From Spartobacteria bacterium (GTDB lineage Bacteria; Verrucomicrobiota; Verrucomicrobiia; Chthoniobacterales; UBA10450): DNA of 64,000 nucleotides. A model generated the notes under the pieces. It saw only the letters and a program-made list of their open reading frames with translations. It was not told where the DNA came from and did no database searches. Below are positions 1,262 to 39,086 of this stretch, one piece after another. Numbering within the stretch: the stretch's first letter is position 1; every line of letters begins with the position of its first letter. The DNA lies in contig PNAA01000027.1 of NCBI GenBank assembly GCA_003169975.1, forward strand, positions 1-64,000, in the 5' to 3' direction. Both the position numbers and the translations under genes were made by a program.

Positions 1262-1476
1262 TCAGTGCGGCTTCCCGTTACGCCAGCGTTCAGAAACAGC
1301 GCGATCCACACGCTTCGTTGAACACGTGCAGCGCGTTGCCTGTCTCCTCGCATGATCTGACCCTGTGGTAAGTTTCTTCAAAAACAAAAGGAACAAAGAA
1401 CGGAGGATGGCGTAAGGGCGTTGGATGGAGCAGACACGCGAAGGCAGAAGGATGAAGGAAGAATTAAGAAGTGTCA

Positions 1477-1938: not shown

Positions 1939-2148
1939 CTCTGGGCGCAGTTCTAGCGGGGGCGCTCGTCCTCGCAAAGGAAAAAGAGGCGTGGCGCGAG
2001 GAAATCATGAAGGATGAAGGGAGAAGGATGAAAGCTGATCCGCCTGAGGCGGACTGAAGGCAGGACGTAAAGGCTTCGCCACGTCCCAAGGCGGGCGACG
2101 TCTCTCCGCAGAACCCGTGACATTCGCGTAATCTGCGGTCACAATAAG

Positions 2149-23128: not shown

Positions 23129-23223
23129 CGGGGGATACTGCTTGAACGACAAACCTCGTCGCAATCTGCATTGGAGTCCGGTCGGATAAAGGGTAAGAGT
23201 ATAAAAGTCCCGCAAGGGCTGCC

Positions 23224-23937
23224 ATGCGACTTTCACAAAAGATTGAAAAATTAGGAAACGCGCAGGCTCTCGAAAGCGCCCGGCGTCATTTCCGTCGCTC
23301 CGTCCTCGCTCGCCCCTTCGGGGTGCGATGCGATCCCGAGCAACTCATCAAGACGATTGATGGCGATCGATTCGAAGCGATTCGGCAACGTCATGCGGTC
23401 GCCGACCCGGGCGAAGGGTGGCCCAAGTATCTCGATTTATCCAAGTGGATGAATGAGAATCTGCGACGCGTGCGCGACCTGGAGTTGGATTTCGGGCGGC
23501 GCAAACGGATTTTGGATATCGGCTGCGGCACCGGCTATTTCCTGTACATCTGCAACTGGCTGGGGCACGACGCAGTCGGTCTCGATATTGATGAAGTGCC
23601 GATGTATGGCGAAATGGCCCAGTTGCTTGGACTGGACCGCATTGTCTGGCGGGTGGAGCCCTTCCAGCGCCTGCCGCAGTTGGAAAAAAAGTTCGACCTC
23701 ATCACGGCCTTTATGATTTGCTTCAACGGGCATAAGAGTCCGGGCCTTTGGGGTGTAAAGGAGTGGGGATTTTTTCTCGATGACCTCGAGACTCATCTTA
23801 GTCCCGGTGGCTGTATATGTCTCGGTTTCAATCGCGAAGACGACGGTCACTACTACAACGCGGAGCTGCGTCGATTCTTTGTGGGACGGCGGGCGGAGAT
23901 AAGCCGCCATCGCGTGACCTTGTTCGCGCGTCGGTAG
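23224..23937 (+). CDS. Class I SAM-dependent methyltransferase
   Basis: 237 residues. The S-adenosylmethionine motif is RILDIGCGTGYFLYICNW, followed by VGLDID at the second strand and FDLITAFMICFN at the fourth, the usual Methyltransf_11/25 layout. There is no export signal. It follows the SGNH/PKD gene on the same strand after 95 bases. The N-terminal 80 residues are basic and helical, and resemble nothing I recognise. The substrate is unknown; small-molecule or glycan methylation are both possible. Confidence 0.85.
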   Translation: MRLSQKIEKLGNAQALESARRHFRRSVLARPFGVRCDPEQLIKTIDGDRFEAIRQRHAVADPGEGWPKYLDLSKWMNENLRRVRDLELDFGRRKRILDIGCGTGYFLYICNWLGHDAVGLDIDEVPMYGEMAQLLGLDRIVWRVEPFQRLPQLEKKFDLITAFMICFNGHKSPGLWGVKEWGFFLDDLETHLSPGGCICLGFNREDDGHYYNAELRRFFVGRRAEISRHRVTLFARR

Positions 23938-23972
23938 GCGGGATTGCCTTTACTTTAAGCTGCGGTGAACAA

Positions 23973-25923
23973 TCACGGCAGACTGTGTCCAAAGGCGGAT
24001 CTTACGGTCCTAACGTCGGCATTCCCGATTGTTCCGTCGACGGTTATGTCTTCGCGGAAGTTGGCGCTGGTAACCGGCATGCCACTTTGCCCTCTTGTTA
24101 GTTTGACGTCGGAGTTATTTACAGTCTTGTCGGCATTCGGATCGCCGATCAGCATATTTAGACTGACCGCGGTACCCGGCAGCACCTGAGAAGTACTGCT
24201 CGTCACGCCGCTCAAAGTCAGCGTAATTTTTTGCACATCGGTGACCCCCGCAAGGTTTACGGTCATCGTGTTTCCGGCAAAGATCGGGTGTCCGGAGACG
24301 CTGCCGGTGCCGGCCGTCACCGCAGCGCTGCCGCTGACAACGTTGCTACTGAAGGTAAAGACGAGGGTATGGGCCAGGTTGCTGCTCCGGCACTCTACGC
24401 CCGGTTCGCCGACCAGCGGCAAAGCGATGTCAAAGAGGCCGGCGCTGCCATGCGCCTTGCGTGACACGGCGGAGGTAAGTGCCAGAGTGCTGGAACCGTC
24501 GAGGTAACGCGCGAGGGCAAACTCAGCAAACCTATTCGTCGCGGTGGCTTGAAACCCCACCGCGACAATCTTGCCGTCGGGCTGGAGTGCGGCGGCGTTG
24601 GCTCCGCCATTCAGGTCGCCAAATGAGGTCCGGACTTCGCCGCCAATGCCAAAGGTCGTGTCGAGCGCCCCGTTCGTGTTCAAACGCGCCAGCAGGAAGT
24701 CAGAATCTGATGACTCGGTTAGGATATCCGACGGCGATAATTTTGCCATCGCCTTGCAGGAGAACACTGTAAGCACTCTGGCAGCAACTCCCGAAATCGA
24801 TTTGCGTCATTCCGTCGCCACTAAAGGCGGTGTCGAGGACTCCATTCGAGCCATAGCGTGCAATGGCGAAGTTCTGGACTCCTCCATTGTGGGAGATGGC
24901 AAATCCAGCCGCAACAATCTTACCATCCGGCTGAAGCACGGCGGAGCGCGCCTGATCGAAGTTGTGATCGCCGAAGTCCGTCCGCACCTTCCCGGCGCTG
25001 CCAAAGGTCGGGTCGATGCTACTGTTGGCCAGATAACGAGCCGCCGCAAAGTCGTAGAAGTTCGTCGGATTCTTAGCGGAACCGACGGCCACGATTTTTC
25101 CATCAGGTTGAAGCAGGACGGAAAAAGCATCGTCATTGAAGCCATCAAAATCGGTCGTGATCTGACCGCCGCCGCCAAAAGTCACGTCGGGCGTGCCATC
25201 CGGATTGTAACGCGCGAGGGCGAAGTCAGTGTTGGAGGAGTCGTCGCTGGAGAAGTTAACAAAGTCCGTTCCGGCGGCGAGGATTTTTCCGTCGGTTTGG
25301 AGTGCCAGGGCGAAGGCGTAGCTTCCTTGACCGGGAAAACTGGTTGTGACAATGCCGCCATTACCGAAGCTCGTGTCGAGCGATCCATTAGGGTTGTAAT
25401 GAGCCAGCTCGAAGTCCCCGAGGAAAACGAAGAGAGGAAAGGCGCCGCCCGCGACCACAATTTTGCCGTCGGGTTGGACAAGGATCGCAGAGATCTCAGC
25501 GGCCAGGCCGGGAAAATCTGTTGTCACTTTTCCTTTGACGCCAAAGGTGGTATCGAGGGTACCGTCCGCATTGTAACATGCGATGGCGAAGTCCTCGCCG
25601 GAGAAATCATTGTTGGTGTAGGTGGTTCCGGCGACCAGCAATTTGCCGTCCGCTTGAATGGCCACCGCGTTGGCGATGTCGGTGCTGTGGTTAAAATCGG
25701 TCGTCACCTGGCCGCCGGCGCCGAATGCCGGATTAAGGTCGCCATCTGCCGCCTTTGCGCTTTGGGCGAAAGCGGGGAAAACGAGCGCAATGACCGCCGC
25801 GCTGGTTACCAGGCGCCCCAGGAACGACCGGCGCGCAAGGCGACGACCTGAGGGCGGGGGCGTTGCCCGGCCGGGATTCCGTTTCTGTAGGTTCGCAGTT
25901 GGGTTTGAGTCGGCAAGTTGCAT
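23973..25923 (-). pseudogene. Delta-60-repeat secreted protein with dockerin-like tail, single-base frameshift
   Basis: Two overlapping frames make one protein. The first encodes a Tat-like signal (RRSFLGRLVTSAAVIALVF), then six delta-60 repeats, each with a core like LQPDGKIVAVG and a TDFG/FGxGG strand. It goes out of frame at about 24715-24723, where the minus strand reads CCTAACCGAG; removing one C gives G-Y-P-N-E-S-S-D-S-D-F-L-L-A-R and joins the second frame. That frame carries a seventh repeat, a beta domain and a dockerin-like C-terminus (DPNADKTVNNSDV, then ITVDGTIGNADV). Removing that C also restores the dispersed 8-mer CCTAACGA. It is a true mutation or a sequence error. Delta-60 proteins are exported repeat proteins of unclear role. 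Confidence 0.85.
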
Positions 25924-26094
25924 AACAGTTCCTTTCCTTGTTACGCTACTAACCGCCCGCGTGCTGCCACGTCGCAAGCAGTGCTCCGTAACGATTCTGT
26001 TGCCCTGCCGCCGAGTTCCCCAGGCCCGGGAGCGACAAGCATTCGTCGCGTGATTTCGCTCCGCGCGGGCGGCAAAGCAAAACGATGGCCAACG

Positions 26095-26952
26095 TTAGGC
26101 CGCGACGGATCTGCGCTTCCGTTTGACGAGGGCCGCGGTCGACTTCGTCGCGGCCGACCGACTGGCCGACGACTTTTTCTGGTGGCTCGCGCGCTGCAAG
26201 CTTTGCTGCAGAACGGCGACCATGTCGATCACGTTTGGCTGGACGCGGGGCGCGGGCGGTTTGGCTGCGGGAGCGCGTTTCTGCGCCTTCTCTTCAATCA
26301 GCTGCATGAGCGCGGTCTGATACTGGTCTTTGTATTTGGTCGGCTCCCATTCCGTGGTCATCGCGTCGATCAACGCGGTCGCCATTTTCAACTCTTGCGG
26401 GGAGACGGTTTTGTCTTCGGCGCTGTTGAGCGATGCGGGTTCGAGAACTTCCTGGGCGAAGTGCATCAGTTCCAGGATCAAAAAGAGACCGTCGGGTTTC
26501 ACCGCCGCCAGGTATTCGCGCTTCTGGATGGCGACCTTGGCGACCCCGACTCGGCCGGACGTGCTGAGCGCCTTGTGCAACAGTGCGTAGGCTTTTTCGC
26601 CCCCTTTTTGCGGCTCGAGGAAATACGGTTTGTAAAAAAACTTCGGGTTGATCTGCGCCTGCTCGACGAAGTCGGTGATCTCGACGGAGTGAGTGGATTC
26701 GATCTGGACCTTTTCGAAATCCTCATCGCTCAGCGTGACCCATTTCCCCTTCTCGTATTCAAAGCCCTTGACGATTTGGTCGGCGGGGACCTCTTTCTGA
26801 TCGGCCTCGGCCACCTTCTTATAACGGATCGGACTCAAGTCCGTCGCCCGGAGCTGCCGGAAACTGATCTTTTCCTCCTTCGTGGCTGGATAGACCGAGA
26901 CCGGAATGTAAACGAGACCGAAATTGATGCTGCCCTTCCAGATCGCGCGCAT
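26095..26952 (-). CDS. ku: Ku-family DNA end-binding protein
   Basis: Bacterial Ku binds DNA ends and recruits LigD in non-homologous end joining. The 285-residue protein starts MRAIWKGSINFGLVYIPVSV, the usual opening, and keeps the family's core (IRYKKVAEADQKEVP, KGFEYEKGKWV, KFFYKPYFLEP). The C-terminal 60 residues are basic and alanine/lysine-rich, like extended Ku tails thought to help DNA binding. Its start lies upstream of a palindromic repeat (27015-27106) that separates it from rfbD. No ligD is in the window. The 171 bases between its stop and the delta-60 gene hold no feature I can support. Confidence 0.95.
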   Translation of the reverse strand: MRAIWKGSINFGLVYIPVSVYPATKEEKISFRQLRATDLSPIRYKKVAEADQKEVPADQIVKGFEYEKGKWVTLSDEDFEKVQIESTHSVEITDFVEQAQINPKFFYKPYFLEPQKGGEKAYALLHKALSTSGRVGVAKVAIQKREYLAAVKPDGLFLILELMHFAQEVLEPASLNSAEDKTVSPQELKMATALIDAMTTEWEPTKYKDQYQTALMQLIEEKAQKRAPAAKPPAPRVQPNVIDMVAVLQQSLQRASHQKKSSASRSAATKSTAALVKRKRRSVAA

Positions 26953-27014
26953 AATTTCGAAACATCAGCTAATACCGGGCCAGCTGTCAAGACTAACGAC
27001 CGATTGGTCGTGTC

Positions 27015-27106
27015 CTTGTAGCCCGCTTGAGGCGGGTGACCCCGGTCGCGTCCAGACGAGACGCCGCCGCTCCCGCGGGGATCACCCGCCTGAGGCGGGC
27101 TACAAG
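27015..27106. repeat. Intergenic palindrome, TTGTAGCCCGCYTSAGGCGGG type
   Basis: A near-perfect inverted repeat between divergent ku and rfbD. The left arm CTTGTAGCCCGCTTGAGGC is mirrored by a right arm ending GCCTGAGGCGGGCTACAAG, with about 35 bases between. Each arm also holds a small internal hairpin (CCCGC...GCGGG). It resembles other palindromes in this window that begin TTGTAG and end CTACAA, but differs in sequence. It can fold as one long hairpin. Confidence 0.85.
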
Positions 27107-27190
27107 CCGCCGCCGGTCGCGCTTGAACCAACCACAACGAGCAATTAAGGGTCGCGCCTTGCTTGCGGGTGACACCTGTGGTTCATCAGC

Positions 27191-28108
27191 ATGATTGATC
27201 AGCATTTCGTTTTTGATCCTGTGAACACTAAGCCGAAAATCGTCGTGGTGGGAGCCGGTGGACGGCTGGGGGCGGCCCTGGTTCGGGAGTATGCGTCGCG
27301 CGACGAGACGATCGGGTTTACTCACGCCCAGCTCGATCTGGGGCAACCGGAGGCGTTGCGCAGGACGCTTGCGCCGCTGCCCTTTGACGTCCTGATCAAC
27401 GCCGCTGCCCTAACGAACGTGGATTATTGCGAGAACCATCGTGACGAGGCGATGAAGTTGAATGCCGAGGCGCCCCGGGTGCTCGCAGAGGTCTGCGGAG
27501 AGAAGGAGGCGCGATTCGTCCATGTCAGCACCGACTATGTCTTCGATGGGGAAAAGCGGACGCCCTACACGGAGGAGGATCCGGTCGACCCGATCAGCGT
27601 TTACGGCGAGTCGAAGCGGGCCGGCGAGGAGCGGGTGTTGGCGGCGAACGATCGCGCGCTGGTCATCCGCGTCTCGTGGGTCTTCGGCCCGGATCGCCCG
27701 AGTTTCGTCGACGCGATTCTGAGGAAAGCGCGGGCCGAGGAACAGGTCGCGGCCGTCGCCGACAAATTTTCCACGCCGACCTATACGCCCGACATTGCCG
27801 CTCTGCTGCGACCGCTGCTCGATTCGGCGGCGGTCCGCGGGATCGTTCATCTGGCGAATCGGGGAGCGTGCAGCTGGCAGGAGTACGCGCAGTGGGCGCT
27901 CGACTGCTGCCACGAGTTCGGCGTCCCGATGAAGGCGAGAACGGTTGCTGCGGTGTCGTTAGGCGAGATGACAAACTTTGTCGCGCGCCGGCCGGGTTAT
28001 AGCGTTCTGGCGACCGACAAATACGAGCAGCTGACCGGGGAAACGCCGCGCCCATGGCGCGCGGCGGTGGCCGATTACGTCCGGGAGCATTACGGCAAAG
28101 GAAGGTGA
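27191..28108 (+). CDS. rfbD: dTDP-4-dehydrorhamnose reductase
   Basis: Last step of dTDP-L-rhamnose synthesis. The 305-residue protein has the nucleotide-binding pattern VVGAGGRLGAALVREY, INAAALTNVDYCE, VHVSTDYVFDGEKRTPY, and the catalytic YGESKRAGEE (Y-x-x-x-K). The conserved domain starts at about residue 15 (KPKIVVVGAG), so the ATG at 27191 may be a few codons early. It stands alone, away from rfbB. Two copies of the dispersed 9-mer core lie inside (27409, 27956). A downstream 98-base gap leads to the PagL-like gene with a possible promoter. Confidence 0.92.
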   Translation: MIDQHFVFDPVNTKPKIVVVGAGGRLGAALVREYASRDETIGFTHAQLDLGQPEALRRTLAPLPFDVLINAAALTNVDYCENHRDEAMKLNAEAPRVLAEVCGEKEARFVHVSTDYVFDGEKRTPYTEEDPVDPISVYGESKRAGEERVLAANDRALVIRVSWVFGPDRPSFVDAILRKARAEEQVAAVADKFSTPTYTPDIAALLRPLLDSAAVRGIVHLANRGACSWQEYAQWALDCCHEFGVPMKARTVAAVSLGEMTNFVARRPGYSVLATDKYEQLTGETPRPWRAAVADYVREHYGKGR

Positions 28109-28167
28109 CCGGGCTGCCCGATTCGGCGAGTGCCTTCTTGCGTCCGCTTCAGCTTCTCCAAGGCCGG

Positions 28168-28196
28168 TTGACAATACTTCCGGGCTGGCGTTCTAT
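28168..28196 (+). promoter_or_regulatory. Possible promoter for the PagL-like gene
   Basis: TTGACA at 28168-28173 is followed after 17 bases by TTCTAT at 28191-28196, 10 bases before the ATG at 28207. The -35 element is perfect and the spacing ideal; the -10 element is weak (3 of 6 bases match). If used, the leader would be very short. Confidence 0.4.
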
Positions 28197-28206
28197 CGCG
28201 CGCAAG

Positions 28207-28839
28207 ATGAAACAAATTCTCGTCTCCTGTGCCTTCGCGCTTCTCGTCAGTAGCAACGCTCGCGCCGGCACGGAAGAACCGGTCCAAACCATTGAGAGGC
28301 GGGAGGTCGACAGCAACTTCGCCAAGGGATCGAAGGAATTTCAGAACGTCGCCGGCGCGTTCTTCTTTTTTGATCGCGGTGGCAACAACCGGCCTTCGAT
28401 AGATCTCGCGGTCGACAGTCTGCGCCTCGGAATGATGTTGAGCAATCCGCATGGCTCGAGTTTCTTGGCGGGCAATTTTGAGGTCCTCGGGGAAGCGTTT
28501 GCGGGCCCCATCTTTGAAGGCCCGGGCAACGTCACCGCCGGTGCGACGCTTTTCATTCGCTACAATTTCGTCCAGCCGCGGGCTCGTCTCATTCCCTACC
28601 TGCAGATCGGAGCCGGTGGTGTCTACACCGACATCTCCGAGAAAGCGTCGGGCGGACTCGTCAGTCTACCCGTCGAGTTTAATCTCCAAGGCGTGGGCGG
28701 CACGCGTCTGATGCTGAACGATCGCTGGTCGATCGTCGTCGAGGCGGGGTATCGCCACATTTCGAACGCGACCATCAAGCTGCCGAATTACGGCGTCGAT
28801 TCCGTTGGCGGAAATCTTGGTTTCGGCTTCTTTTTCTAG
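28207..28839 (+). CDS. PagL-like lipid A 3-O-deacylase family protein
   Basis: A 210-residue predicted outer-membrane beta-barrel. The signal peptide MKQILVSCAFALLVSSNARA ends with A-x-A. Alternating hydrophobic strands follow and a terminal aromatic residue (GFGFFF) typical of outer-membrane proteins. The motif YRHISNATIKLPN carries the H-x-S pair that is catalytic in PagL. Family members remove the 3-O acyl chain of lipid A. Family homology is reasonable, but a different role for the barrel is possible. The long upstream open frame (from 28054) is not part of the gene; the ATG at 28207 starts the signal. Confidence 0.78.
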   Translation: MKQILVSCAFALLVSSNARAGTEEPVQTIERREVDSNFAKGSKEFQNVAGAFFFFDRGGNNRPSIDLAVDSLRLGMMLSNPHGSSFLAGNFEVLGEAFAGPIFEGPGNVTAGATLFIRYNFVQPRARLIPYLQIGAGGVYTDISEKASGGLVSLPVEFNLQGVGGTRLMLNDRWSIVVEAGYRHISNATIKLPNYGVDSVGGNLGFGFFF

Positions 28840-28847
28840 ACAACACT

Positions 28848-29528
28848 ATGAAAATTACCACCGCGCTCGTCGCTTTTGGTCTGCTCCTCGCGCTCGAAGG
28901 CTCAGCGCGCGCCGCCCTCGTCTGGGAAACCACGGAGGCGGACCTGCATCCGAGCCTGGCGGACAAGACGGCCGTCGCGCATTTCAAATACAAGAACACC
29001 GGCGATAAACCGATCAAGATCACCTCGGTCCATCCGTCGTGTGGTTGCACGACGGCCGCCCTGGCCAAAGACCTCGTCGCGCCTAACGAGGGCGGGGAGA
29101 TCGTCGCCACCTTTAATATTGGCGACCGTACCGGCGTGCAGAAGAAGACCATCACCGTCGTGACCGACGAGGAAGCGAGCCAGCCGACCGTCCTGAAACT
29201 AACGGCGACGATTCCGCAACTCCTGCAGGTGGCGCCCACCTTCATCTACTGGTCGGCGAACGACGTGCTCAGCCCGAAAACGATTACCGCCGAGGTGGGC
29301 GACTTTCCGGTCACCAAACTAACGGTCACGTCGACCGACAAGTCGATCGCCACGGAAGTCGCATCCGGGCCCAAGGAAAAGACGTTTCGCATCATCGTGA
29401 CGCCGACGGAAAGCGGCCGGCCAATCAACGCCGCGCTGAAGATCGAACCGGATTTCCCGAAGGACGCGCCGAAATCGTTTTACGTTAATGTCCGCGTGGA
29501 CAGCCGGGCGAAGCCGGTGCCGAAGTAA
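28848..29528 (+). CDS. DUF1573-domain exported protein
   Basis: A 226-residue protein with a signal peptide (KITTALVAFGLLLALEG) and a DUF1573 domain: FKYKNTGDKPIKITSVHPSCGCTTAAL with its conserved CGC. The domain is an immunoglobulin-like exported fold of unknown function. A second beta domain fills the C-terminal half. Gene order DUF1573, rhodanese, MauE with short or overlapping spacings indicates an operon possibly concerned with a periplasmic thiol/redox step; that is inference. The 9-mer at 29081 encodes A-P-N-E. Confidence 0.87.
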   Translation: MKITTALVAFGLLLALEGSARAALVWETTEADLHPSLADKTAVAHFKYKNTGDKPIKITSVHPSCGCTTAALAKDLVAPNEGGEIVATFNIGDRTGVQKKTITVVTDEEASQPTVLKLTATIPQLLQVAPTFIYWSANDVLSPKTITAEVGDFPVTKLTVTSTDKSIATEVASGPKEKTFRIIVTPTESGRPINAALKIEPDFPKDAPKSFYVNVRVDSRAKPVPK

Positions 29529-29531
29529 TTT

Positions 29532-29960
29532 GTGCCCCTTTCGTTAGTCCGACAGGTCCTTTTGCTGCTGGGGCTGGCTTTTCTCCCGGCGATCGGGCAG
29601 GCGGTTTACTACCGGGGCGCGACCTCTTGGCAGCACCCACCGGTCGATTCCGCACCAGTGAGCGTGGCGCAGGCCAAAGACTGGGGCGACGCCGCCCTGT
29701 GGATCGATGCGCGGGCGGAAGAACAGTTCGCCGGCGGACATGTGCCGGGGGCGATGCTCTTGAACGAAGACGATTGGAACACGCTCCTGCCGAAGGTGCT
29801 GGCGGTCTGGTCGCCCGGGCGAAAACTGGTCGTGTACTGCAGCCGGCAAACTTGCAACGCCAGCCATGAGGTGGCGGAACGCCTGCGAAACGAGGCCGGA
29901 CTGAAGAATGTTTTTGTCCTGCAGGGCGGGTGGGAAGAATGGCAGAAAAACAACCCGTGA
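29532..29960 (+). CDS. Rhodanese-domain sulfurtransferase-like protein
   Basis: 142 residues from a GTG at 29532, three bases after the DUF1573 stop. An N-terminal hydrophobic segment (VLLLLGLAFLPAIGQAV) suggests export or membrane anchoring. The rhodanese core has LWIDARAEEQFAGGHVPGA and the active-site loop VVYCSRQTCNAS, where the C is the persulfide-carrying residue. It overlaps the MauE-like gene by 22 bases, the strongest sign of co-expression in this operon. A sulfur carrier or thiol-transfer role at the membrane is plausible. Confidence 0.88.
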   Translation: MPLSLVRQVLLLLGLAFLPAIGQAVYYRGATSWQHPPVDSAPVSVAQAKDWGDAALWIDARAEEQFAGGHVPGAMLLNEDDWNTLLPKVLAVWSPGRKLVVYCSRQTCNASHEVAERLRNEAGLKNVFVLQGGWEEWQKNNP

Positions 29961-30412
29961 CCAACGATCGCGACCAGGTCCATCGCTTCAACTGGCGTCT
30001 CGTTAGGCGAGCGCTCGCCATTTTGGCGGGCGCGGTGTTTGTTTACGCGGGGATATTGAAGGTGCGCGATCCGGTGCAATTCGCGAGCGCGATCAACAAT
30101 TACCAGATGATCCCCTGGTCGGTCGGGGTGCGGTTCGCCTTTTATCTGCCCTGGCTGGAAATCCTTTGCGGGCTCGCGCTCATATTTCATCGGCTCATGG
30201 CCGGGGCGCTCGCTATCACCATTGGGTTGATGCTCGTTTTTGTCGGCGCGACGCTCTGGGCCAAGGCGCACGGCATTGATGTCGCCTGCGGCTGTTTTGG
30301 CAGCGCGAGCAGCAACCTGACGCTGACCTGGCACCTCGTGCTCGATGGTTGCATTCTCGCCGCGCTCGTTTTCCTCTGGTTCACGCACGAACGTCCCGCC
30401 CCTGCGGGCTGA
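29939..30412 (+). CDS. MauE/DoxX-like membrane protein
   Basis: 157 residues from the ATG at 29939, inside the end of the rhodanese gene; an ATG three codons earlier is also possible. Four hydrophobic segments follow, with FVYAGILKVRDPVQFA and a later CGCFG motif whose paired cysteines are typical of MauE-type proteins that help maturation of exported disulfide-bearing partners. Together with the DUF1573 and rhodanese genes this suggests a periplasmic redox operon. The 9-mer at 30000 encodes V-R. Confidence 0.85.
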   Translation: MAEKQPVTNDRDQVHRFNWRLVRRALAILAGAVFVYAGILKVRDPVQFASAINNYQMIPWSVGVRFAFYLPWLEILCGLALIFHRLMAGALAITIGLMLVFVGATLWAKAHGIDVACGCFGSASSNLTLTWHLVLDGCILAALVFLWFTHERPAPAG

Positions 30413-30485
30413 CCTTCGTTGGCGCCGGCGAGGGCTGCGACGCTGGCACTCCGCCGGGCTCACCGCCTCCGACTACAGACAGCAA

Positions 30486-30506
30486 CGTTAGGGTAAAGCC
30501 CTAACG
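30486..30506. terminator. Hairpin built from two facing 8-mer cores, between convergent genes
   Basis: CGTTAGGG (30486-30493), loop TAAAG, CCCTAACG (30499-30506): a perfect 8-base stem. Each arm holds the core of the dispersed 9-mer. It lies between the MauE gene (stop 30412) and the convergent regulator gene, whose stop (30488-30490) falls in the stem. There is no T-run after it, so it is a candidate two-way terminator or structure rather than a classic intrinsic terminator. Confidence 0.65.
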
Positions 30507-32515
30507 ATCAGGGCGCGGAGCTCGGCTGCCCCGTTAAGTTCCACTTCCTGGATTTCGAACGGCGCACTCTCACTCTCGCTGCCATTGCGGACGAGGACCG
30601 TGCTGCCGTGGGGTTTCAGCAGGACTGCGGCCACTTCAAAGGCCGCGGTCAACTCGACCGTCAGCAATTCGAATGGCGCCGTCATCCGGACGCGCATCGA
30701 CTCATCCGCCTGCGACGTAAGCCGTATGTATTGATGCGCATTGGCCGGTTGGAGGCTCATGGCTCCGATTGCGAATGAACTTCCAGCCGCGGGCAACTGC
30801 GGGGGTTGCCGCGTCGGGACCAACCGGACGGTATCGACGTGGCCGTCAACGCCCAGTCCGATCGCGCCCAGGCGAAAGCCGGTCTCGAGAGACACACCAT
30901 TGAGCTCTTCCCGCTCGGCCATTTTCACCGCGACGGTCGAGTTGACCGGCTGCAATTTCATCCCTTCCATCCGGAAAAACGGCGTGATTTGCATCGAAAC
31001 GACCTGGAGCGAAAGCGTGACACTCACCTCCGCGCGCCTCACGCCCGACGCCGGGACCTGCGGAGTTGGCCACGCCGGCTGTTCGAGGATCGAGGGTTTC
31101 GGCAATTCGCTGGCGGGCGGCGTGGGCGGCGGGACTTCCGCGGGTGGCTGCTGCTTCGGCGCGACTTCACCGCCGCCAATGCCGTGCCCGTTGGGCAAGG
31201 GCGTCGCCGGACTCTCGGCTGGCAGCACGGGAGACGGCATCGGCGCCGGCGGGGGAACGACGGGCGCGAGTTTGGGCGCCGCCTTCGGACGCAGGGCCGT
31301 TGGCAGCCGGCCGGTCGCGAGCAATTTCTCCACCGTGTTAATCAACTCGCCGGAGAGAAACGGTTTCGGCAACGATGCGACCACATTCTCATAATCTTCC
31401 GCCGTCCTGATCAGCTCGGTCACGTGGCCGGACATCATCAGGATCGGGATGCGCGCCGTCCTCTCGTTTTCGAGCAGGGCGCGGCACACTTTGTCGCCGG
31501 TCATGTCGTTCAGGCTATAATCGAGCAGCACCAGATCGGGACGTGCCGTTTCCGCGAGTCTCAAACCTTCGGCACCGGTCGACGCCGTGACGATTTGGAA
31601 AGTTTGATCCGCGGTCGCGAGGACGTCGGCGACGAAAACGAGCAACATCTCCGTGTCGTCGATCACGAGAATCTTCTTCCCGGTTTTCGCGACCGGCGCG
31701 CTTTGTGCCGCGGCCCTGCCTGACGATTTCTTCTCCTGCTCGGCCAGTTTGCGAACGAACGGCAGGAGTAGTACCGGCCAGGCGACGTTGATCGTCTTCG
31801 GCCAGGCGCCGGTGGGTTCTGTCTGGCTCAGGGTCCCGCCCGTCCAACTGAGGATTTCCTCGAGTGCGTCCACTCCGCTCATCGTCCCGGCGACGGCGTG
31901 GCGGATTTGCCCCTTATGGAAAAAAATGTCACCGGAGGCACCGTGCGCCATCTCGAGACGGACGACGGCGGTACTGAGGGCGAGACACTTCAGCTGTACG
32001 ATGTCGACGAGATGCAGGTCGCGCAGCGTTCCGCGGTAATTGATCGAGGGCGGCAGCCCCCAAGGCCCGAGAAGCGCCTGCACGGCGGCCCCGAACTCTT
32101 CGAGATCGAACGGCTTTTCGATGAATTGAATCCCGCCGGCGGTCCCGCGCGCGGCCCGCAGGTCGCGCGAAATGCCCGCCGCGATCGCCAGCACGCGGGC
32201 ATCGGGATATAGCGCTTTCAATTTGTTGAAGAACTCGACATCCCCGAGCGGGGGAGGATCCAGGTCGATCACGAAGAGCTCCGGTCGCATGGCCGCGGCG
32301 GCCGTTTCGGCTTCCCCAAAAGTGCGCGCCACCTGTACGCCATGAAGCGGGGCAAATTTGTGCAGAGCCGACGAGATCGCGACCCTCAGAGCGCTGTAAT
32401 CCTCGATGAGCAGAATGCCGCGCGGGAGGTTTTCGGAAGCCGGAGTTGGCGGATTCGAGGGCACGTTAGGAGCGTAGAAAGGGCCCGAGGATAGGAGAAG
32501 GCGCGTACATGTCAA
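30488..32515 (-). CDS. Two-receiver PATAN (DUF4388) response regulator
   Basis: A 675-residue cytoplasmic regulator. Receiver 1 spans about residues 33-150 (GILLIEDYSALRVAI, LFVIDLD, FIEKPF). A PATAN/DUF4388 domain spans about 155-270 (TLRDLHLVDIVQLKCLALST, with IFFHKGQIRHAVAGTMSG). Receiver 2 spans about 285-400 (KILVIDDTEMLLVF, DLVLLDYSLNDMTGD, SLPKPF). A proline-rich linker and then about 190 residues I do not recognise finish the protein. There is no DNA-binding domain, so it probably works by protein contact. Its stop lies in the hairpin shared with MauE. No kinase gene is adjacent. Confidence 0.82.
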   Translation of the reverse strand: MTCTRLLLSSGPFYAPNVPSNPPTPASENLPRGILLIEDYSALRVAISSALHKFAPLHGVQVARTFGEAETAAAAMRPELFVIDLDPPPLGDVEFFNKLKALYPDARVLAIAAGISRDLRAARGTAGGIQFIEKPFDLEEFGAAVQALLGPWGLPPSINYRGTLRDLHLVDIVQLKCLALSTAVVRLEMAHGASGDIFFHKGQIRHAVAGTMSGVDALEEILSWTGGTLSQTEPTGAWPKTINVAWPVLLLPFVRKLAEQEKKSSGRAAAQSAPVAKTGKKILVIDDTEMLLVFVADVLATADQTFQIVTASTGAEGLRLAETARPDLVLLDYSLNDMTGDKVCRALLENERTARIPILMMSGHVTELIRTAEDYENVVASLPKPFLSGELINTVEKLLATGRLPTALRPKAAPKLAPVVPPPAPMPSPVLPAESPATPLPNGHGIGGGEVAPKQQPPAEVPPPTPPASELPKPSILEQPAWPTPQVPASGVRRAEVSVTLSLQVVSMQITPFFRMEGMKLQPVNSTVAVKMAEREELNGVSLETGFRLGAIGLGVDGHVDTVRLVPTRQPPQLPAAGSSFAIGAMSLQPANAHQYIRLTSQADESMRVRMTAPFELLTVELTAAFEVAAVLLKPHGSTVLVRNGSESESAPFEIQEVELNGAAELRALIVRALP

Positions 32516-32574
32516 AACAACGCAATCGCAAGTTGCATGCCCCCGGGAGGGATTGTTAGGGCGGCGGCCGCCGC

Positions 32575-33810
32575 TTATTCGTAGCGCAGCGCCTCGATCG
32601 GATCGAGGGAAGCCGCCCGGTAAGCGGGATAAAGACCGAAACCGATCCCGATCGCGGAGCAGACGAGGAGTCCCGCGATCGCCCAGCCAAACGGGAAAAT
32701 GAGATCCACTTTCAGCCAGAGCGCGAGCAAATCACCGCCCAGCACCCCCAGCAGGATGCCGAGAATCCCCCCCGCTTCGGAAATGAACACTGCTTCCGCC
32801 AAAAACTGGCGCAGGATGTCGCGCTCGCGCGCGCCGATCGATTTGCGCACGCCGATCTCTTTCGTCCGCTCCGTCACGCTCACCAGCATGATGTTCATGA
32901 TCCCGATCCCGGCCGCGAGGAGGGCGATCGTGCTGATCACGAAAGCGCCGATCCGGATGACCCCGGCGACGGAAACGAAGGCGCTCTTGAGCGAGTCGTT
33001 CGTGTAAATCTCGAAATCGTTAGGCTCTTCCGCCCGCAACCCGCGCGCGATGCGCATCGCGCCGACGCCGCGGTCGAAGGTGCGGTTGTAATCCAACTGG
33101 GACGAGGACTGCGTCGCGATGTTGATCGTCCGGTTGGCGGAGCCGAAATCCTCGAACAAGCGGGTGATCGGCATGACCGCGATGTCGTCCTGGCTCATCC
33201 CGAAAGCAGTGCCACGTGTGGCCATCACGCCGACGATGGTGAAGGTGTGGCCACTGAGTTTGATCACGCGGCCGATCGGCGATTCGTGCGGGAAAAGCCG
33301 CTGCTCGATCGCGCGGCCGACCACCAGCACGGGGCGACTCAGCGCGACATCTTCATCATTCAAGTTGCGGCCGTAAGCGAGAGTGTAGGCGTTGGCGGCG
33401 AGGAAACTCTTATTCGTCCCGACGATCGTCAGGCTGGGGGTCGTCTTCACGCCATTGTAAACCGCCTGCTTGCCGTCGTCGAAAACCTTCAGGCAGACTT
33501 CCTGCGCGTTGCCCTCCATCAGCTCGGCATAGCGTTGCGCTTCGCGGTAAATAATGTTGCGCCGGTTTTCGTATTTCTTCTGCCCGCTCCCACCGGCGCG
33601 GACGTTGATCGGGTATTTCGCGAACTGGAAGATGTTCGAGCCGAAAAGCGTCAGGCCGGTTTCAATCGACGCCTGCATCGCGCCGATCGCAGTCATCACC
33701 GAGATGACGGAAAAGACGCCGATCGTGATGCCGAGCATGGTGAGAGCGGAACGCAGCTTGTTCGCCCCGACGGAGGAGAGGGCCATCGTTAGGATCTCAC
33801 GAAAGTTCAT
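32575..33810 (-). CDS. MacB-like ABC transporter permease 2
   Basis: A 411-residue FtsX/MacB-type permease: one membrane segment near the N-terminus (ANKLRSALTMLGITIGVFSVISVM), a large periplasmic MacB_PCD domain, then three membrane helices from about residue 285 with the conserved ERTKEIGVRKSIGARERDI. It ends with SLDPIEALRYE, the family's usual tail. With the second permease, an ATPase and a MacA-type adaptor on the same strand it forms a tripartite export system. The substrate is unknown; peptides, lipoproteins or drugs are typical. A 92-base palindrome separates it from permease 1. Confidence 0.92.
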   Translation of the reverse strand: MNFREILTMALSSVGANKLRSALTMLGITIGVFSVISVMTAIGAMQASIETGLTLFGSNIFQFAKYPINVRAGGSGQKKYENRRNIIYREAQRYAELMEGNAQEVCLKVFDDGKQAVYNGVKTTPSLTIVGTNKSFLAANAYTLAYGRNLNDEDVALSRPVLVVGRAIEQRLFPHESPIGRVIKLSGHTFTIVGVMATRGTAFGMSQDDIAVMPITRLFEDFGSANRTINIATQSSSQLDYNRTFDRGVGAMRIARGLRAEEPNDFEIYTNDSLKSAFVSVAGVIRIGAFVISTIALLAAGIGIMNIMLVSVTERTKEIGVRKSIGARERDILRQFLAEAVFISEAGGILGILLGVLGGDLLALWLKVDLIFPFGWAIAGLLVCSAIGIGFGLYPAYRAASLDPIEALRYE

Positions 33811-33819
33811 GGCTGGAAT

Positions 33820-33911
33820 TTGTAGACGCTTCGCTCTGCGAAGCGCGGCCCAAAGCGTCGAGCCTGAGCTGCAGCGTATTCCCTTTCGCCGCCCATAGGG
33901 CGGCGTCTACA
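33820..33911. repeat. Intergenic palindrome, TTGTAGACGCTTCGC family, copy 1
   Basis: Starts TTGTAGACGCTTCGCTCTGC and ends GGCGGCGTCTACA, arms complementary. An internal hairpin CGCTTCGCTCTGCGAAGCG is also present. It lies between the two permease genes. Close relatives are at 35191-35280 and 43038-43130, which share the outer TTGTAG...CTACA and the CCCAYAGGGCGGCG centre. Confidence 0.88.
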
Positions 33912-33917
33912 CACGCC

Positions 33918-35168
33918 TTATTCATACCTTAAGGCCGTGACCGGATCGAGTCGCGAGGCCGACCACGCCGGCGCGATCCCCGAGACCAATCCGGTTAGGA
34001 CCGAGACGATCATGCTCGCGATGACCAGGCCGAACGAAAAACGAATCGGAAAGGAAGGAAAGGCTGCCGCCATCCCAAAGCACATCAGGTAGGCGAAGGT
34101 CAGTCCGATCAGCCCGCCGACCAGGCAAAGCGCTGTCGACTCGATCAGGAACTGCAGCAGAATGGTCCGGCGCCGCGCGCCTAACGCTTTGCGTGTCCCG
34201 ATCTCTTTCGTTCGCTCCTTCACGCTCACGAAAGTGATGTTCATGATCCCGATCGCACCAACGAAGAGCGACAAACCGGTGATGAAGAGGCCGGCGATCG
34301 CGATCGTCGTTTTCACCGCGTCGAGGGTGCTCTTGAAGGCTTGTTGTTCGTTGATGCTGAAATCGTCCTTCTTCTCGGGCGGCAGGGAACGCAGCCGGCG
34401 CATGATGCCCGTCAACTCGTCGACCGCGTCCGCCATATGTGTCTTGTCGCGCACCTTGACCCGCACATCCGCTTCACTCTTGGCGCTGAAATATTTTTTG
34501 AACGCGGGCAACGGGATGACCACGATCGAATCGAGACTGAACAGCCCGAGAAAAGTGCCCTGGCGGGAGAGCGTCCCGATCACTTTGAAGGAGTGGCCGT
34601 TGATCAAGACCTTCTTGTCCAGCGCGCTCCGGCCCGCGAAAGCCGCATCGGCCACGTCATAACCGACGACGCAGACTTCCGCTCCGCCGCGAGATTCCAG
34701 TTCGTTAAAGAAGCGGCCTTCGCTGCAATCGAGCGTCGAGATCAGAGTGTAGTCGGTGGTCGTGCCGAGGATGAAGACGCCGTCCACGCTGTTGTCGCCC
34801 GCTTTCACACTGCGCAGCAGACTCATCGTCGGCACCGCGATCATCAGGTTGGAGTTGGGCGTCGCGGCGATCGCGTGGTTGATTTTGTCTGCGTACTCGG
34901 TCCGGATTTTTTTTCGGTCGCGGTAGTTCCACCAGTCGTTCATCCGCGTCCAGGGTCGCTGCGAGATGTAGAGCACGTCGTCGCCGATCACGGCCATGCT
35001 TTTGTCGAAGCCGGTCGAGATGCCGTTGATCGCGGTGCCCATCAGCGTGACTGCCACGATGCCGATGATCACGCCGAGCGCGGTCAGCATGGAGCGGGTC
35101 TTGTTCGCCACCATCTGAGCGGCGGCGATTTTCCAGCTTTCGGTCAGCTCGTAAAGGAAACGTTTCAT
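33918..35168 (-). CDS. MacB-like ABC transporter permease 1
   Basis: 416 residues from the ATG at 35166-35168 (MKRFLYELTESWKIAAAQMV), preferred over an upstream ATG that would start in the intergenic repeat region. The architecture matches the other permease: an N-terminal membrane helix with ANKTRSMLTALGVIIGIVAV, a MacB_PCD periplasmic domain, three later helices with KERTKEIGTRKALGARRRTI, and a SRLDPVTALRYE tail. Two full-length permeases likely form a heterodimer with the single ATPase. The 9-mer at 35174 is in its leader, directly before the start. Confidence 0.92.
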   Translation of the reverse strand: MKRFLYELTESWKIAAAQMVANKTRSMLTALGVIIGIVAVTLMGTAINGISTGFDKSMAVIGDDVLYISQRPWTRMNDWWNYRDRKKIRTEYADKINHAIAATPNSNLMIAVPTMSLLRSVKAGDNSVDGVFILGTTTDYTLISTLDCSEGRFFNELESRGGAEVCVVGYDVADAAFAGRSALDKKVLINGHSFKVIGTLSRQGTFLGLFSLDSIVVIPLPAFKKYFSAKSEADVRVKVRDKTHMADAVDELTGIMRRLRSLPPEKKDDFSINEQQAFKSTLDAVKTTIAIAGLFITGLSLFVGAIGIMNITFVSVKERTKEIGTRKALGARRRTILLQFLIESTALCLVGGLIGLTFAYLMCFGMAAAFPSFPIRFSFGLVIASMIVSVLTGLVSGIAPAWSASRLDPVTALRYE

Positions 35169-35190
35169 GAATAGCCTAACGACTCGAGCC

Positions 35191-35280
35191 TTGTAGACGC
35201 TTCGCTCTGCGAAGCGCGGGAGCAAGCGTCGTTTGTGAAATAACGTTCACCCCCGCGTCGCCCACAGGGCGGCGGCTACA
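35191..35280. repeat. Intergenic palindrome, TTGTAGACGCTTCGC family, copy 2
   Basis: Begins TTGTAGACGCTTCGCTCTGC like copy 1 and ends GGGCGGCGGCTACA. It lies between the ATPase gene and permease 1, so each junction of the downstream half of the operon has one. It can form a long hairpin and may set transcript stability or attenuation; that is inference. Confidence 0.87.
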
Positions 35281-35303
35281 GGCGCTGCCAAGGAAACGCT
35301 CCA

Positions 35304-36065
35304 TCACTTGCCTAACGACTCAACCGCCACCGCCATCGCAGCGGGCGGCGGGAGCGGAGCCAGTTCGTCGCTCTCGACCACGCCGTCGCGCAGGTGGACG
35401 CTGCGCCGGGCATGGCGGGCGATGTCGGCCTCGTGCGTCACGACAATCACTGTGTTGCCCTGTTGATAGAGGCTTTCGAAGAGCGCCATGATCTCTTCAC
35501 CGGTCTTGGAATCGAGGTTCCCGGTGGGCTCGTCGGCCAGAATGATCGAGGGATGATTGACCAGTGCGCGGGCGATGGCAACGCGCTGGCGCTGGCCACC
35601 GGACAGTTCGTTAGGCTTGTGCGTCAGGCGATCGCCCAGCCCGACGTCGGTCAGCGCTTGCGTCGCGCGCTCCTCGCGCTCTTCGGGATCGATCCCGGCG
35701 TAAATCAGCGGCAGCTCGACGTTGCGCAAACTGGTGGAGCGGGGGAGCAGGTTGAAGGTTTGGAAAACGAAACCGATCTCGCGATTGCGGATCGTGGCCA
35801 GTTCGTCGCCATCCATCTCGGAGACATTTTTGCCGTTAAACTCGTAGCGCCCGGAACTCGGCGTGTCGAGACAACCCAGCATGTTCATGAGGGTCGATTT
35901 GCCGCTTCCGCTCGGACCCATAACGGCGAGGTATTCGTTGCGCCGGATCTGCAAAGTCACGCCGCGCAGGGCATGAATGATTTCCTCGCCCATCACGTAT
36001 TCCTTCGTGATGTTCTCGATGTCGATGACAAGGGGGAGTGACGAGTGATGAGTGACGAGTGACAA
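35304..36065 (-). CDS. MacB-like ABC transporter ATPase
   Basis: A 253-residue nucleotide-binding domain of the MacB/LolD type: [17 protein letters not shown] (Walker A), [15 protein letters not shown] (Q-loop), [16 protein letters not shown] (signature), [12 protein letters not shown] (Walker B) and [12 protein letters not shown] (H-loop). Its TTG start at 36063-36065 and first ten codons are encoded by a short repeat (TCACTCGTCACTCATCACTC); ordinary family members begin right at [11 protein letters not shown]. So the upstream insertion has replaced the native start region. It still has an intact frame and should work, with altered translation initiation. Confidence 0.92.
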
Positions 36066-36482
36066 GTTATGGGCGCGCCGTTAGTTTGCGGCGCAGGGCA
36101 TTGAGCATTCGGCGCTGCTCTTCGATTAGTTGAAAAGGGGGAGCGGCATCGGCGTCGCGACAGAATTGTAATTCGAGGCTGAGAATCAGTTGGGTGTCCA
36201 GTTCTGCGAGCGACCGTTCCGCGTGCGAGATAAACTGAACAAACTCGCCGGTCGTGTGGCGCGCCTGACCTTCGGCAATGTTGGAGGGGATTGAAACCGC
36301 CGCTCTTCGCATCTGAGCAACCAACCCAAACTTTTCCTCGGTCGGAAAGCCCCGCGTTATCCGGTAGACGACTTTCGCGAGAGCGATTCCTTTCTGCCAA
36401 ACAACGAGATCCTTATAGCTGCGGGTACTAGTTTTCATGACCGCATTCCTACCCAGAAACTCGTCACTCGTCACCCATCACT
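36041..36482. repeat. Inverted TGACGAGTGATGAG repeats flanking the four-helix-bundle gene
   Basis: At 36041-36066 the plus strand reads AGTGACGAGTGATGAGTGAC and on; at about 36459-36482 it reads CTCGTCACTCGTCACCCATCACT, the complement. The two face each other around the four-helix-bundle gene. The left copy runs into the ATPase gene's first codons. This makes the gene and its flanks look like a cassette. Confidence 0.78.
36067..36438 (-). CDS. Four-helix-bundle protein (S23/TIGR02436 family)
   Basis: 123 residues from the ATG at 36436-36438; an ATG 12 codons earlier would start in the flanking repeat. The protein begins with [20 protein letters not shown] and carries [16 protein letters not shown], the signature of the four-helix-bundle family first seen in 23S rRNA intervening sequences and related to the Avd accessory protein of diversity-generating retroelements. 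No reverse transcriptase is nearby. It interrupts the MacA-ATPase junction and lies within inverted short repeats. Its function is unknown; the operon-internal placement suggests a moved cassette. Confidence 0.9.
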
Positions 36483-36487
36483 ATCGT

Positions 36488-37840
36488 TCACTTCTTCTCC
36501 GCCTTCTCCATCACCACTTTGGCGCCGTCCTTGAGCTTGCGGCTGATCGCGCTGTAGCTGCCCGAAATGACTTCGTCGCCCGGTTTCACACCGCTCTTGA
36601 TCTCGACGCTCGCGTCGTCCGCGATCCCGGTGGTGACCTCCACCATTCTCGCTTTGCTGCCGTCTTTCAGAAAAACGACTTTGCGCAGCTTCTCGCGCTC
36701 TTCTTTTTTCTCCTGCTTGGCGAGGCGTTCGTTCTCGACCTGGGCGTTGTTGTCGGCGTTTTCCTTGGCCGCCGCCAGTGTCTTTTTCTGTTCGATCTCT
36801 TCCGGGCTGAGGTTGCTGTCGCCGGTCCGAATGGTAACGCTTTGCATCGGGACGGCGACGACGTCTTTCACCATGTCGGTCTGGATCTCGGCCGTGCAAC
36901 TGAGGCCCGGACGGAGCCTGACGCCGGGCTTCTCGAGCTGGATTTTGACCTGGAAATTGGTCACTTCCTCCTGCGTGCCGGTGCCCGTCGTCGTGCCGGT
37001 GTTGGCGATCTGCTCGACTTTGCCACTGAATTTTCGGTCGCCGTAGGCGTCGATCTGGACCTTCGCCGAATCGCCCAGCCTGACGTGCACAACGTCGTTC
37101 TCATTCACGTCCACGACAGCTTGCATGTGGTTGAGATCGGCCACCCGCATGACTTCAGTGCCGGCAAATTGATTCGTCGCAACGACGCGTTCGCCGAGCT
37201 TGCTGTTGAGCACCGTGACGATGCCGTCGAGCGGCGAGTAGATGGTCGTTTTCGAAAGCTGATCGCGCGCCTGGCTCGAGCTGGCTTGCGCGCCCTCGAT
37301 GCTGTGCAGACCCGATTGATACATCGATTTCGCCGCGTCGTAGGTGGTCTGCGCAGCGAGCATTTCGGTTTGAGAGATCAGCTTCTTGTGGAAAAGATCC
37401 TGCGCTTGCGCGAGGTCCTGCTCGGCTTTTGTCATCGCCGCCTTCTGCTGTCCGCTAACCGACTGCGCGGTGCTGATCGCGGCCTGCTGCTGCTCGAGGA
37501 TGGCTTTGTAAGAGTCGGGCCGAATCTTCATCAGCAGGTCATCTTTTTTCACTTCCTTGCCGTCCTCGACCGGAAGATCAATGATCTCGCCCGCGACCTC
37601 GGGCGAAATCTTCACTTCCGTTTCCGGTTGCACTTTCCCGGTCGCCGAGACGGTCTCAACGATTGTCCGGCGGGTTGCTTTTTCGGTCGTCACTTCGATT
37701 GGCTTCTCGCGCTTGCCCGAGATGACGGAACCGATGATCAGGATCAGGATGAGCCCGCCTATTCCGAGCCAGATGTAGAGTTTGCGCCGGGACTTGCGTT
37801 TGCGGCGAACGGTCGGTGAGGGCGCGGCGGCTTGATGCAT
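36488..37840 (-). CDS. MacA-like periplasmic adaptor (HlyD family)
   Basis: A 450-residue membrane-fusion protein. A basic N-terminus and one membrane segment (LYIWLGIGGLILILIIGSVI) are followed by a barrel-sandwich half (VSATGKVQPETEVKISPEVAG), a helical coiled-coil hairpin (about residues 115-215, rich in Q, A and S), the second half (IYSPLDGIVTVLN) and a beta-barrel domain. It links the inner-membrane permeases to an outer-membrane channel, which is not in the window. A charged K/E/R-rich stretch (about 345-385) is unusual for the family and may be an insertion. It heads the MacAB-like operon, followed by the four-helix-bundle cassette. Confidence 0.92.
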   Translation of the reverse strand: MHQAAAPSPTVRRKRKSRRKLYIWLGIGGLILILIIGSVISGKREKPIEVTTEKATRRTIVETVSATGKVQPETEVKISPEVAGEIIDLPVEDGKEVKKDDLLMKIRPDSYKAILEQQQAAISTAQSVSGQQKAAMTKAEQDLAQAQDLFHKKLISQTEMLAAQTTYDAAKSMYQSGLHSIEGAQASSSQARDQLSKTTIYSPLDGIVTVLNSKLGERVVATNQFAGTEVMRVADLNHMQAVVDVNENDVVHVRLGDSAKVQIDAYGDRKFSGKVEQIANTGTTTGTGTQEEVTNFQVKIQLEKPGVRLRPGLSCTAEIQTDMVKDVVAVPMQSVTIRTGDSNLSPEEIEQKKTLAAAKENADNNAQVENERLAKQEKKEEREKLRKVVFLKDGSKARMVEVTTGIADDASVEIKSGVKPGDEVISGSYSAISRKLKDGAKVVMEKAEKK

Positions 37841-37935
37841 CAGAGACGAGGGTTGTCCTCAGGATTTAGCGGCTCTTTCGACCTTTGCAAACACTTCCCG
37901 TTCAATCCGAAGCCAGACGCATGCCAACGTCTGTG

Positions 37936-38005
37936 CAGGGCCAGCGCCCCGCTTGCCATGCGTGTATCGTCGTTGTGGGACGGCAGGCGGAGCGCCCGCC
38001 CTACC
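37936..38005. repeat. Intergenic palindrome, GGCAGGCGGAGCGCCCGCC family, copy 1
   Basis: Left arm AGGGCCAGCGCCCCGCTTGCC, right arm GGCAGGCGGAGCGCCCGCCCT, separated by about 25 bases. A second member of the family is at 63672-63736. It lies between macA and queG, touching the queG stop. Confidence 0.75.
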
Positions 38006-39086
38006 ATTGCAGCTCGCGCAACGCAGGACTCAAGCGCGTTTCGATCCGTTCGATCGCCCACGTGGCGTGCTCGGCAATCAGCGGCTCGCGGTCGCGCGCG
38101 GCCGCCGCGAGCGACGGCAAATCTTCCTCAGTCCCGACGTTACCAAGCGCGACGCAGACGTTGCGCAAAAAACCGCGGCGCTTGATCCGCTTGATCGGCG
38201 ACCCGCGAAACACTTCCCGGAACTGCTCGTCATCGAGCGCGAGAAAATCGCGCAACCGCATTTGCGCGACTGCGGGCCGCGCCGCGAACGCGCTCTCGCG
38301 CGCCACCTGCGCGAAGCGATTCCAGGGACAGGCGTCGAGGCAATCGTCGCAGCCATAAATCCGATCGCCGATGAGCGGCCGGAATTCGAGGGGAATGCTG
38401 CCTTTGAGCTCGATCGTCAGGTAGGAAATGCAGCGGCGGGCGTCGAGTTGATGCGGCGCCGTGATTGCGGCGGTCGGGCAGGCATCGATGCAGCGGGTGC
38501 AGGATCCGCAACGCGCCACCTGCGGCGGATCGGGCGCCAGCTCGAGCGTGGTAAAAATTTCCGCGAGGAAGAACCAGGTCCCGAGCCGGCGGTTGAGAAA
38601 CATCGTGCTCTTGCCGTGCCAGCCGATCCCGGCCTCGGCGGCAAAGTCGCGTTCCAATACCGGGCCGGTGTCGACGTAAAACTTCTGCCGCCCGCCGGCC
38701 TCAGCGAGAAACGCATGCAGCTCCCGCAACTTCTTTTCCAGGACGTCATGATAGTCATCCCCCCACGCGTAGCGCGCGATTCGGCCGCCCTCCGCACTTC
38801 TTCCTTCTGCCTTCTTCCTTCTGCCTTTCCCATCTCCCTGCCAATAATTCATCGCCAGCGCGACGACCGAACGCACGCCGGGCAACACTTTTTGCGGATC
38901 GCAGCGCTTCTCGGCGCTGCGCGCCATCCAATCCATCTCGCCGTCCGCACCCGCCTCGAGCCACGCGCGGAATTCATCCGCGTGCCGCGGTGCATCAGCC
39001 CGCGCGATGCGACAATCATCGAAACCGATCTCGGCCGCGCGCCGAAGCAGCTCGATTTTTATTTCAGTTGGAGAGCGCAAGGACAT
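38001..39086 (-). CDS. queG: Epoxyqueuosine reductase
   Basis: QueG carries out the last step of queuosine synthesis in tRNA, using cobalamin and two [4Fe-4S] clusters. The 361-residue protein has the expected cysteines: CGSCTRCIDACPTAAI and CDDCLDACPWNRFA, with a HEAT-like C-terminus. About residues 84-95 are an in-frame low-complexity segment (GRRKKAEGRSAEGG) encoded by a short repeat of CTTCTTCCTTCTGC type; standard QueG proteins lack it. It overlaps aroK by 23 bases on the same strand, and the two are probably co-transcribed. Confidence 0.94.
   Translation of the reverse strand: MSLRSPTEIKIELLRRAAEIGFDDCRIARADAPRHADEFRAWLEAGADGEMDWMARSAEKRCDPQKVLPGVRSVVALAMNYWQGDGKGRRKKAEGRSAEGGRIARYAWGDDYHDVLEKKLRELHAFLAEAGGRQKFYVDTGPVLERDFAAEAGIGWHGKSTMFLNRRLGTWFFLAEIFTTLELAPDPPQVARCGSCTRCIDACPTAAITAPHQLDARRCISYLTIELKGSIPLEFRPLIGDRIYGCDDCLDACPWNRFAQVARESAFAARPAVAQMRLRDFLALDDEQFREVFRGSPIKRIKRRGFLRNVCVALGNVGTEEDLPSLAAAARDREPLIAEHATWAIERIETRLSPALRELQW

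Follow-up and report, generated by a model that had tools for sequence, protein, structure and literature searches.

A facing pair of family-specific 9-mers forms a probably incidental hairpin at a regulator gene end in a Chthoniobacterales genome

The hairpin at positions 30486-30506 of the window (the whole 64-kb stretch of DNA that was analysed) is probably an incidental product of two copies of TCGTTAGGC, a conserved 9-mer specific to one family, that lie inverted to each other at a gene end. The motif appears to be a DNA-level signal present at thousands of places in the Chthoniobacterales family of the source genome (G000), most likely a DNA uptake sequence, and the hairpin at 30486 most likely lacks a termination function of its own. 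Taken alone the hairpin matters little, and it is the motif that is of interest.

Results

Two facing motif copies overlap the 3' end of a regulator gene

The 21 bases at 30486-30506 read CGTTAGGG-TAAAG-CCCTAACG and form a perfect inverted repeat, with arms of 8 bp around a loop of 5 nt (Table 1). They consist of two copies of the 9-mer placed face to face across a 7-nt gap, both with the G variant at the last position. The first-pass annotation of this DNA had described two facing motif cores that form an 8-base perfect hairpin between convergent genes, with the stop codon of the regulator in the stem. Both the hairpin and the stop codon within its left arm are present as claimed, and the two flanking genes, which encode a MauE-family membrane protein and a regulator, are indeed convergent, with 75 nt between their stop codons. 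However, the hairpin lies between the genes only in part: it overlaps the regulator 3' end, and 19 of its 21 bases belong to the coding sequence or stop codon of that ORF, which reaches 32515 when the first TTG is taken as start.

Table 1 Features at and around the hairpin (window coordinates)
Feature	Position	Strand	Remark
Left arm CGTTAGGG (+ strand reading)	30486..30493	-	contains the regulator stop codon TAA (30488-30490, minus strand)
Loop TAAAG	30494..30498	.	+ strand RNA folds with a 3-nt loop plus a ninth, G-U pair
Right arm CCCTAACG	30499..30506	-	minus-strand motif copy = Val-Arg codons (GTT AGG), regulator C-terminus
MauE-family membrane protein gene (PF07291)	29939..30412	+	convergent with the regulator gene
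Regulator gene: Response_reg (PF00072, two stretches) and DUF4388	30488..32464	-	
Further motif copy (TCGTTAGGC at 30000-30008), core	30001..30007	+	inside the MauE gene

The 64-kb window contains 16 perfect 8-bp inverted repeats whose loops measure 3-8 nt, while 20 first-order Markov simulations of the window gave a mean of 13.45 (range 7-20). Given this similarity of observed and expected numbers, a hairpin of this kind is nothing out of the ordinary here.

The regulator end carries direct motif copies in relatives

In three relatives of the same genus (G010, G020 and G027), the regulator ends in VRAxR-stop and its gene carries two direct motif copies 6 nt apart, one on the Val-Arg codons and the other holding the stop codon TAG. 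G000 retains the Val-Arg copy, and its second copy lies in the opposite orientation compared to these three genomes. A single motif copy is found near the regulator stop in G001, and no match to the regulator was found in G034. Judging from these sequences, the hairpin at the regulator end is peculiar to G000. In their C-terminal region, the regulators of the relatives are ~33-45% identical to the G000 protein, and with proteins this divergent, the unchanged retention of GTTAGG at this position in four genomes speaks for the DNA word as the conserved feature. Where the regulator relatives derive from named records, these are Chthoniobacterales metagenome-assembled genomes, and two of the records agree with the same-genus genomes G027 and G020 in 35 of 35 100-mers each, which places the window in this order of Verrucomicrobiota.

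The 9-mer is a dispersed, conserved motif enriched at gene ends

Throughout the G000 genome, TCGTTAGGC is present in 1980 copies (981 forward, 999 reverse) compared to 61 copies (31 and 30) of the reversed word used as control, which rules out chance as the origin of the motif. It is also the 9-mer with the strongest over-representation in the window relative to base composition (34 observed, 0.5 expected), and its core CGTTAGG occurs there 51 times when both strands are counted. Within the window, CGCGATCG and related GATC-centred words are likewise over-represented relative to base composition. A 451-kb sample, composed of the window and 387 kb of further sequence and representing a non-random choice of about one tenth of the genome, contained 261 CGTTAGG cores, divided 131 to 130 between the strands, with a T before the core in 82% and a C after it in 74%. 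In the same sample, about nine positions of the motif are constrained and almost no information lies beyond them; a mobile or REP-like repeat was ruled out, as conservation ends at ~9 bp.

Core density in the 451-kb sample is similar in coding (0.54 per kb) and intergenic sequence (0.50 per kb). Broken down by context, core density is highest at convergent junctions with 1.34 per kb, followed by tandem junctions (0.92), genes (0.53) and divergent junctions (0.44). Within the 25 nt that begin at the stop codon, 23 motif copies were counted compared to 5.7 expected, and in 19 of 395 predicted genes the stop codon itself lies inside a motif copy, with genes outside the window being called by a hexamer gene caller that was made for this analysis and checked solely against ORFs near the 30486 site. 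The codon pair GTT-AGG was observed 31 times, compared to 4.0 expected. Gene ends gather motif copies, and they do so in either orientation.

Motif copies are also more conserved than their surroundings. Of the motif 9-mers of G010 and G020 that could be aligned to G000, 43 of 64 are exactly conserved there, versus 17 of 218 flanking 9-mers, in 37.7 kb of alignment with 23% background mismatch; the pieces had been picked for holding motif pairs, and the control consists of flanking 9-mers rather than matched words. Alignments of less than 200 columns, repeated query places and three gapped sites were dropped from this count. A resemblance of the 9-mer to an uptake sequence, as implied by the first-pass annotation, is supported by its copy number, its balance between strands, its preference for gene ends and its conservation.

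Another kind of dispersed signal (a recombination hotspot, a chromosome-segregation signal, a methylation or protein-binding site, or a codon-context artefact) might also underlie the motif, and the pair at 30486 would again be incidental. We consider this rather unlikely, although everything in the sequence that speaks for an uptake sequence is circumstantial and the in-gene copies avoid two of the six frames, namely those that create an in-frame stop, which would suit such a signal as well. Strand-polar signals are disfavoured by the balance of 981 to 999 copies, which refers to sequence strands and not to replication direction. Likewise, the occurrence of copies in both orientations, in four frames and between genes argues against a codon artefact, and the lack of a longer conserved flank against a mobile repeat.

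Strong amplification was observed in one family only

Strong amplification of TCGTTAGGC was observed only in the Chthoniobacterales family of the source genome when 288 genomes of the phylum were compared (3 in the family, 285 outside it). Outside the family, counts did not exceed 29, with the exception of three genomes of one genus (f10/g49). Across 61 sampled genomes of the family, copy numbers ranged from 19 to 4605, and genomes of the same genus as G000 carried 1410 to 4605 copies. Several members of the family are not enriched for TCGTTAGGC, among them G013 (60 copies, 79 of the control), G050 (19, control 56) and G016; a different motif dialect or loss of the motif are possible explanations for these low counts. 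The three f10/g49 genomes showed mild counts of 61, 75 and 133 (G279, G267 and G270), with 49, 48 and 66 copies of the reversed control, respectively.

Inverted motif pairs are in no general excess

The first-pass annotation had noted that, in bacteria with uptake sequences, inverted pairs often double as terminators, had considered the copy at 30486 consistent with this, and had regarded a lack of other inverted pairs in the genome as speaking against it. Nine further facing pairs were found in G000 in addition to the one at 30486. Counting all motif pairs with gaps of 1-30 nt, G000 holds 10 facing, 4 back-to-back and 18 direct pairs, compared to ~11 to 18 per inverted class and 22 to 35 direct pairs expected from random placement. 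These expectations rest on two estimates of the 7-mer count, 2585 (from density) and 3250 (from the ratio to the 9-mer), the lower of which gives 11.2 per inverted class and 7.5 for pairs within 10 nt. Within 10 nt, 6 facing and 0 back-to-back pairs were observed, compared to ~7.5 to 12 expected. Over seven genomes, 124 facing, 93 back-to-back and 378 direct pairs were counted, so that inverted pairs (217) are fewer than direct ones (p = 4e-11) and facing pairs are more numerous than back-to-back pairs (p = 0.04).

Facing pairs of G000 lie at convergent junctions in 6 of 10 cases, compared to 4 of 16 direct and 0 of 4 back-to-back pairs (facing versus direct, p = 0.11), and two of the six convergent facing pairs are one duplicated locus. 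We considered a specific association of inverted pairs with convergent junctions on the basis of these 6 of 10 pairs, and it disappeared when direct pairs were classified by the same rule. Over three genomes, the share at convergent junctions is 11 of 41 for facing, 6 of 36 for back-to-back and 12 of 44 for direct pairs (facing versus direct, p = 1.0), based on the contexts of 10/10 facing, 4/4 back-to-back and 16/18 direct pairs in G000, of 14/63, 20/48 and 11/204 in G020 and of 17/22, 9/17 and 9/52 in G010, together with additional pairs met in the G010 and G020 context pieces. Neither the number nor the location of inverted pairs, therefore, supports their common use as terminators in these genomes, and a general terminator role was rejected, given that they show no excess over expectation and no convergent preference beyond that of direct pairs.

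Terminator-like features are seen at one duplicated locus and not at 30486

It seems improbable that the hairpin at 30486 is a working bidirectional terminator or a 3'-end stabiliser derived from two co-opted motif copies, as in Neisseria and Pasteurellaceae. The pair does sit at a convergent junction, as do six of the ten facing pairs of G000, there is precedent for such hairpins in PMC1852404, and the 21-mer, when taken out of its context, folds well (-12.1 kcal/mol, z -5.27). In contrast, the fold is unexceptional in longer context, with z scores between -1.19 and -2.68 (-1.19 for 30413-30520 on the plus strand and -1.80 for 30440-30560 on the minus strand). No T-tract follows the stem on either side, the plus strand continuing with ATCAGGGC and the minus strand with TTGCTGTC; the eight bases after the stem contain one T on the plus side and four scattered Ts on the minus side. 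The site is absent from the 32 terminator-like sites found by a pattern scan of 22000-41000, and no Rfam match at gathering score was obtained in 29800-31200. Moreover, the pair is direct and not inverted in the three relatives of the same genus, and facing pairs are no commoner than direct pairs, either in number or in place. A reading of this copy as a terminator was thus not supported.

Terminator-like sites are rare in G000 altogether, being found at 12 of 392 gene ends and at 4 of 392 mid-gene controls, and this rarity leaves room for a Rho-type or other mechanism of termination. Facing motif pairs account for 2 of the 12 terminator-like gene ends, both of them the duplicated C18 locus (131154 and 137723; L003/L004, 1501-1519). 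Here, at a convergent junction, the facing pair is embedded in a stem of 16 bp that runs into UUUUU, and G034 (L039) shares this hairpin with a weaker T-tract. By its sequence, the C18 locus looks like the best candidate for a terminator built from a motif pair. The pair at 30486 resembles it in having facing copies at a convergent junction and differs from it in its shorter stem of 8-9 bp and its missing T-tract. Co-option of a motif pair as terminator appears, from these features, to have happened at least once, at C18, and not visibly at 30486. The proposal that inverted uptake-type pairs double as terminators has support at one duplicated locus and was not supported as a general pattern in these genomes.

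One arrangement of facing pairs is over-represented. Pairs with a gap of one base, CGTTAGG-S-CCTAACG, make up 21 of the 124 facing pairs of the seven genomes, compared to 4.1 expected; the centre is always G or C, and 5 of the 9 that were seen in context lie at convergent junctions. Examples are found in L005 and L007 at 1501-1515. Given this excess, some inverted arrangements may be favoured, and stop codons shared by convergent genes are one possible explanation. That these tight pairs form a distinct gene-end element of which the 30486 pair is a looser member is very unlikely, since the copies of the latter are 7 nt apart, a gap-1 pair could form no more than a 6-bp stem closed by a 3-nt loop, and the five convergent ones are followed by no more than three Ts in the next eight bases on either side.

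Discussion

To our knowledge, experimentally known uptake sequences are those of Neisseriaceae and Pasteurellaceae. The same two groups are named in PMC1852404, in which the DNA uptake sequences (DUS) and uptake signal sequences (USS) are described as ~9-11 nt long and generally present in 1,000 or more copies. Like Neisseriaceae DUS and Pasteurellaceae USS, TCGTTAGGC is short (~9-10 nt), balanced between strands and present in thousands of copies; it lies both in and between genes, is restricted to a clade, conserved, and sparse in some genome stretches. In contrast to them, it has a different sequence, belongs to a different phylum (Verrucomicrobiota) and is known here from sequence alone. 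No uptake sequence in Verrucomicrobiota was described among the matches listed in a search of titles and abstract openings of open-licence PMC papers, and literal occurrences of TCGTTAGGC (39 papers) and its reverse complement (49 papers) in open-licence PMC texts concerned, by title, unrelated subjects among the 20 and 10 matches listed, respectively.

A further difference lies in the pairs. According to PMC1852404, nearby copies in opposite orientation are in excess in N. meningitidis, N. gonorrhoeae and H. influenzae, whereas inverted pairs of TCGTTAGGC show no such general excess. In N. meningitidis Z2491, Kingsford and colleagues reported there that hairpins are commonest in tail-to-tail regions and carry A- and T-tails. 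Table 4 of that paper sums to 231 hairpins within 10 nt for 1,874 copies, with possible double listing across region types, compared to 6 in G000, a number equal to chance (~7.5 to 12). The 30486 pair shares with the inverted-DUS terminators of Neisseria its facing copies, its convergent junction and its ability to form a hairpin, and differs from them in having no T-tract and in not being inverted in relatives.

How the pair might have arisen can be outlined as follows. Motif-bearing DNA would be preferred in natural transformation, so that copies accumulate and are restored by recombination. They would be kept most easily at gene ends, where their TAG or TAA can act as stop codon, and a dense population of gene-end copies would yield pairs in either orientation, the one at 30486 being inverted by happenstance. 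ComEC, the sole competence gene looked for, gave a match with an E value of 1.9e-51, in a family that also matches 10 of 14 control genomes, including E. coli.

A more far-reaching version of the uptake reading is about evenly balanced in our view. Here, TCGTTAGGC would be a true uptake sequence, self-DNA recognition would have evolved independently in Verrucomicrobiota, strongly in some genera and not at all in others, and facing pairs such as C18 and the gap-1 pairs would be starting to be co-opted as gene-end hairpins, with 30486 as an early, T-less case. If TCGTTAGGC is an uptake sequence, it would add a third, unrelated lineage in which the origin of such sequences by biased uptake and drive can be tested, and a series of copy numbers from 19 to 4605 within one family is available for such a test. 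In addition, copies of TCGTTAGGC prefer gene ends although their inverted pairs are in no general excess, which separates location at gene ends from use as terminators.

Three stretches of 17-25 kb in the 451-kb sample of the G000 genome are free of the motif, at ~28.8-54.0 and 57.8-76.9 kb of contig C2 and at ~49.6-66.7 kb of contig C5 (L012-L014, L018-L019). Their GC content is lower (0.565-0.573), and they are possibly recently acquired DNA or islands. Among the 20 of their proteins that were scanned, two stretches yielded polysaccharide-synthesis, halogenase and AMP-binding enzymes. The third encodes a Peptidase_S74 domain, a fragment of a DNA methylase and proteins that matched nothing in Pfam, and contains phage-like small genes.
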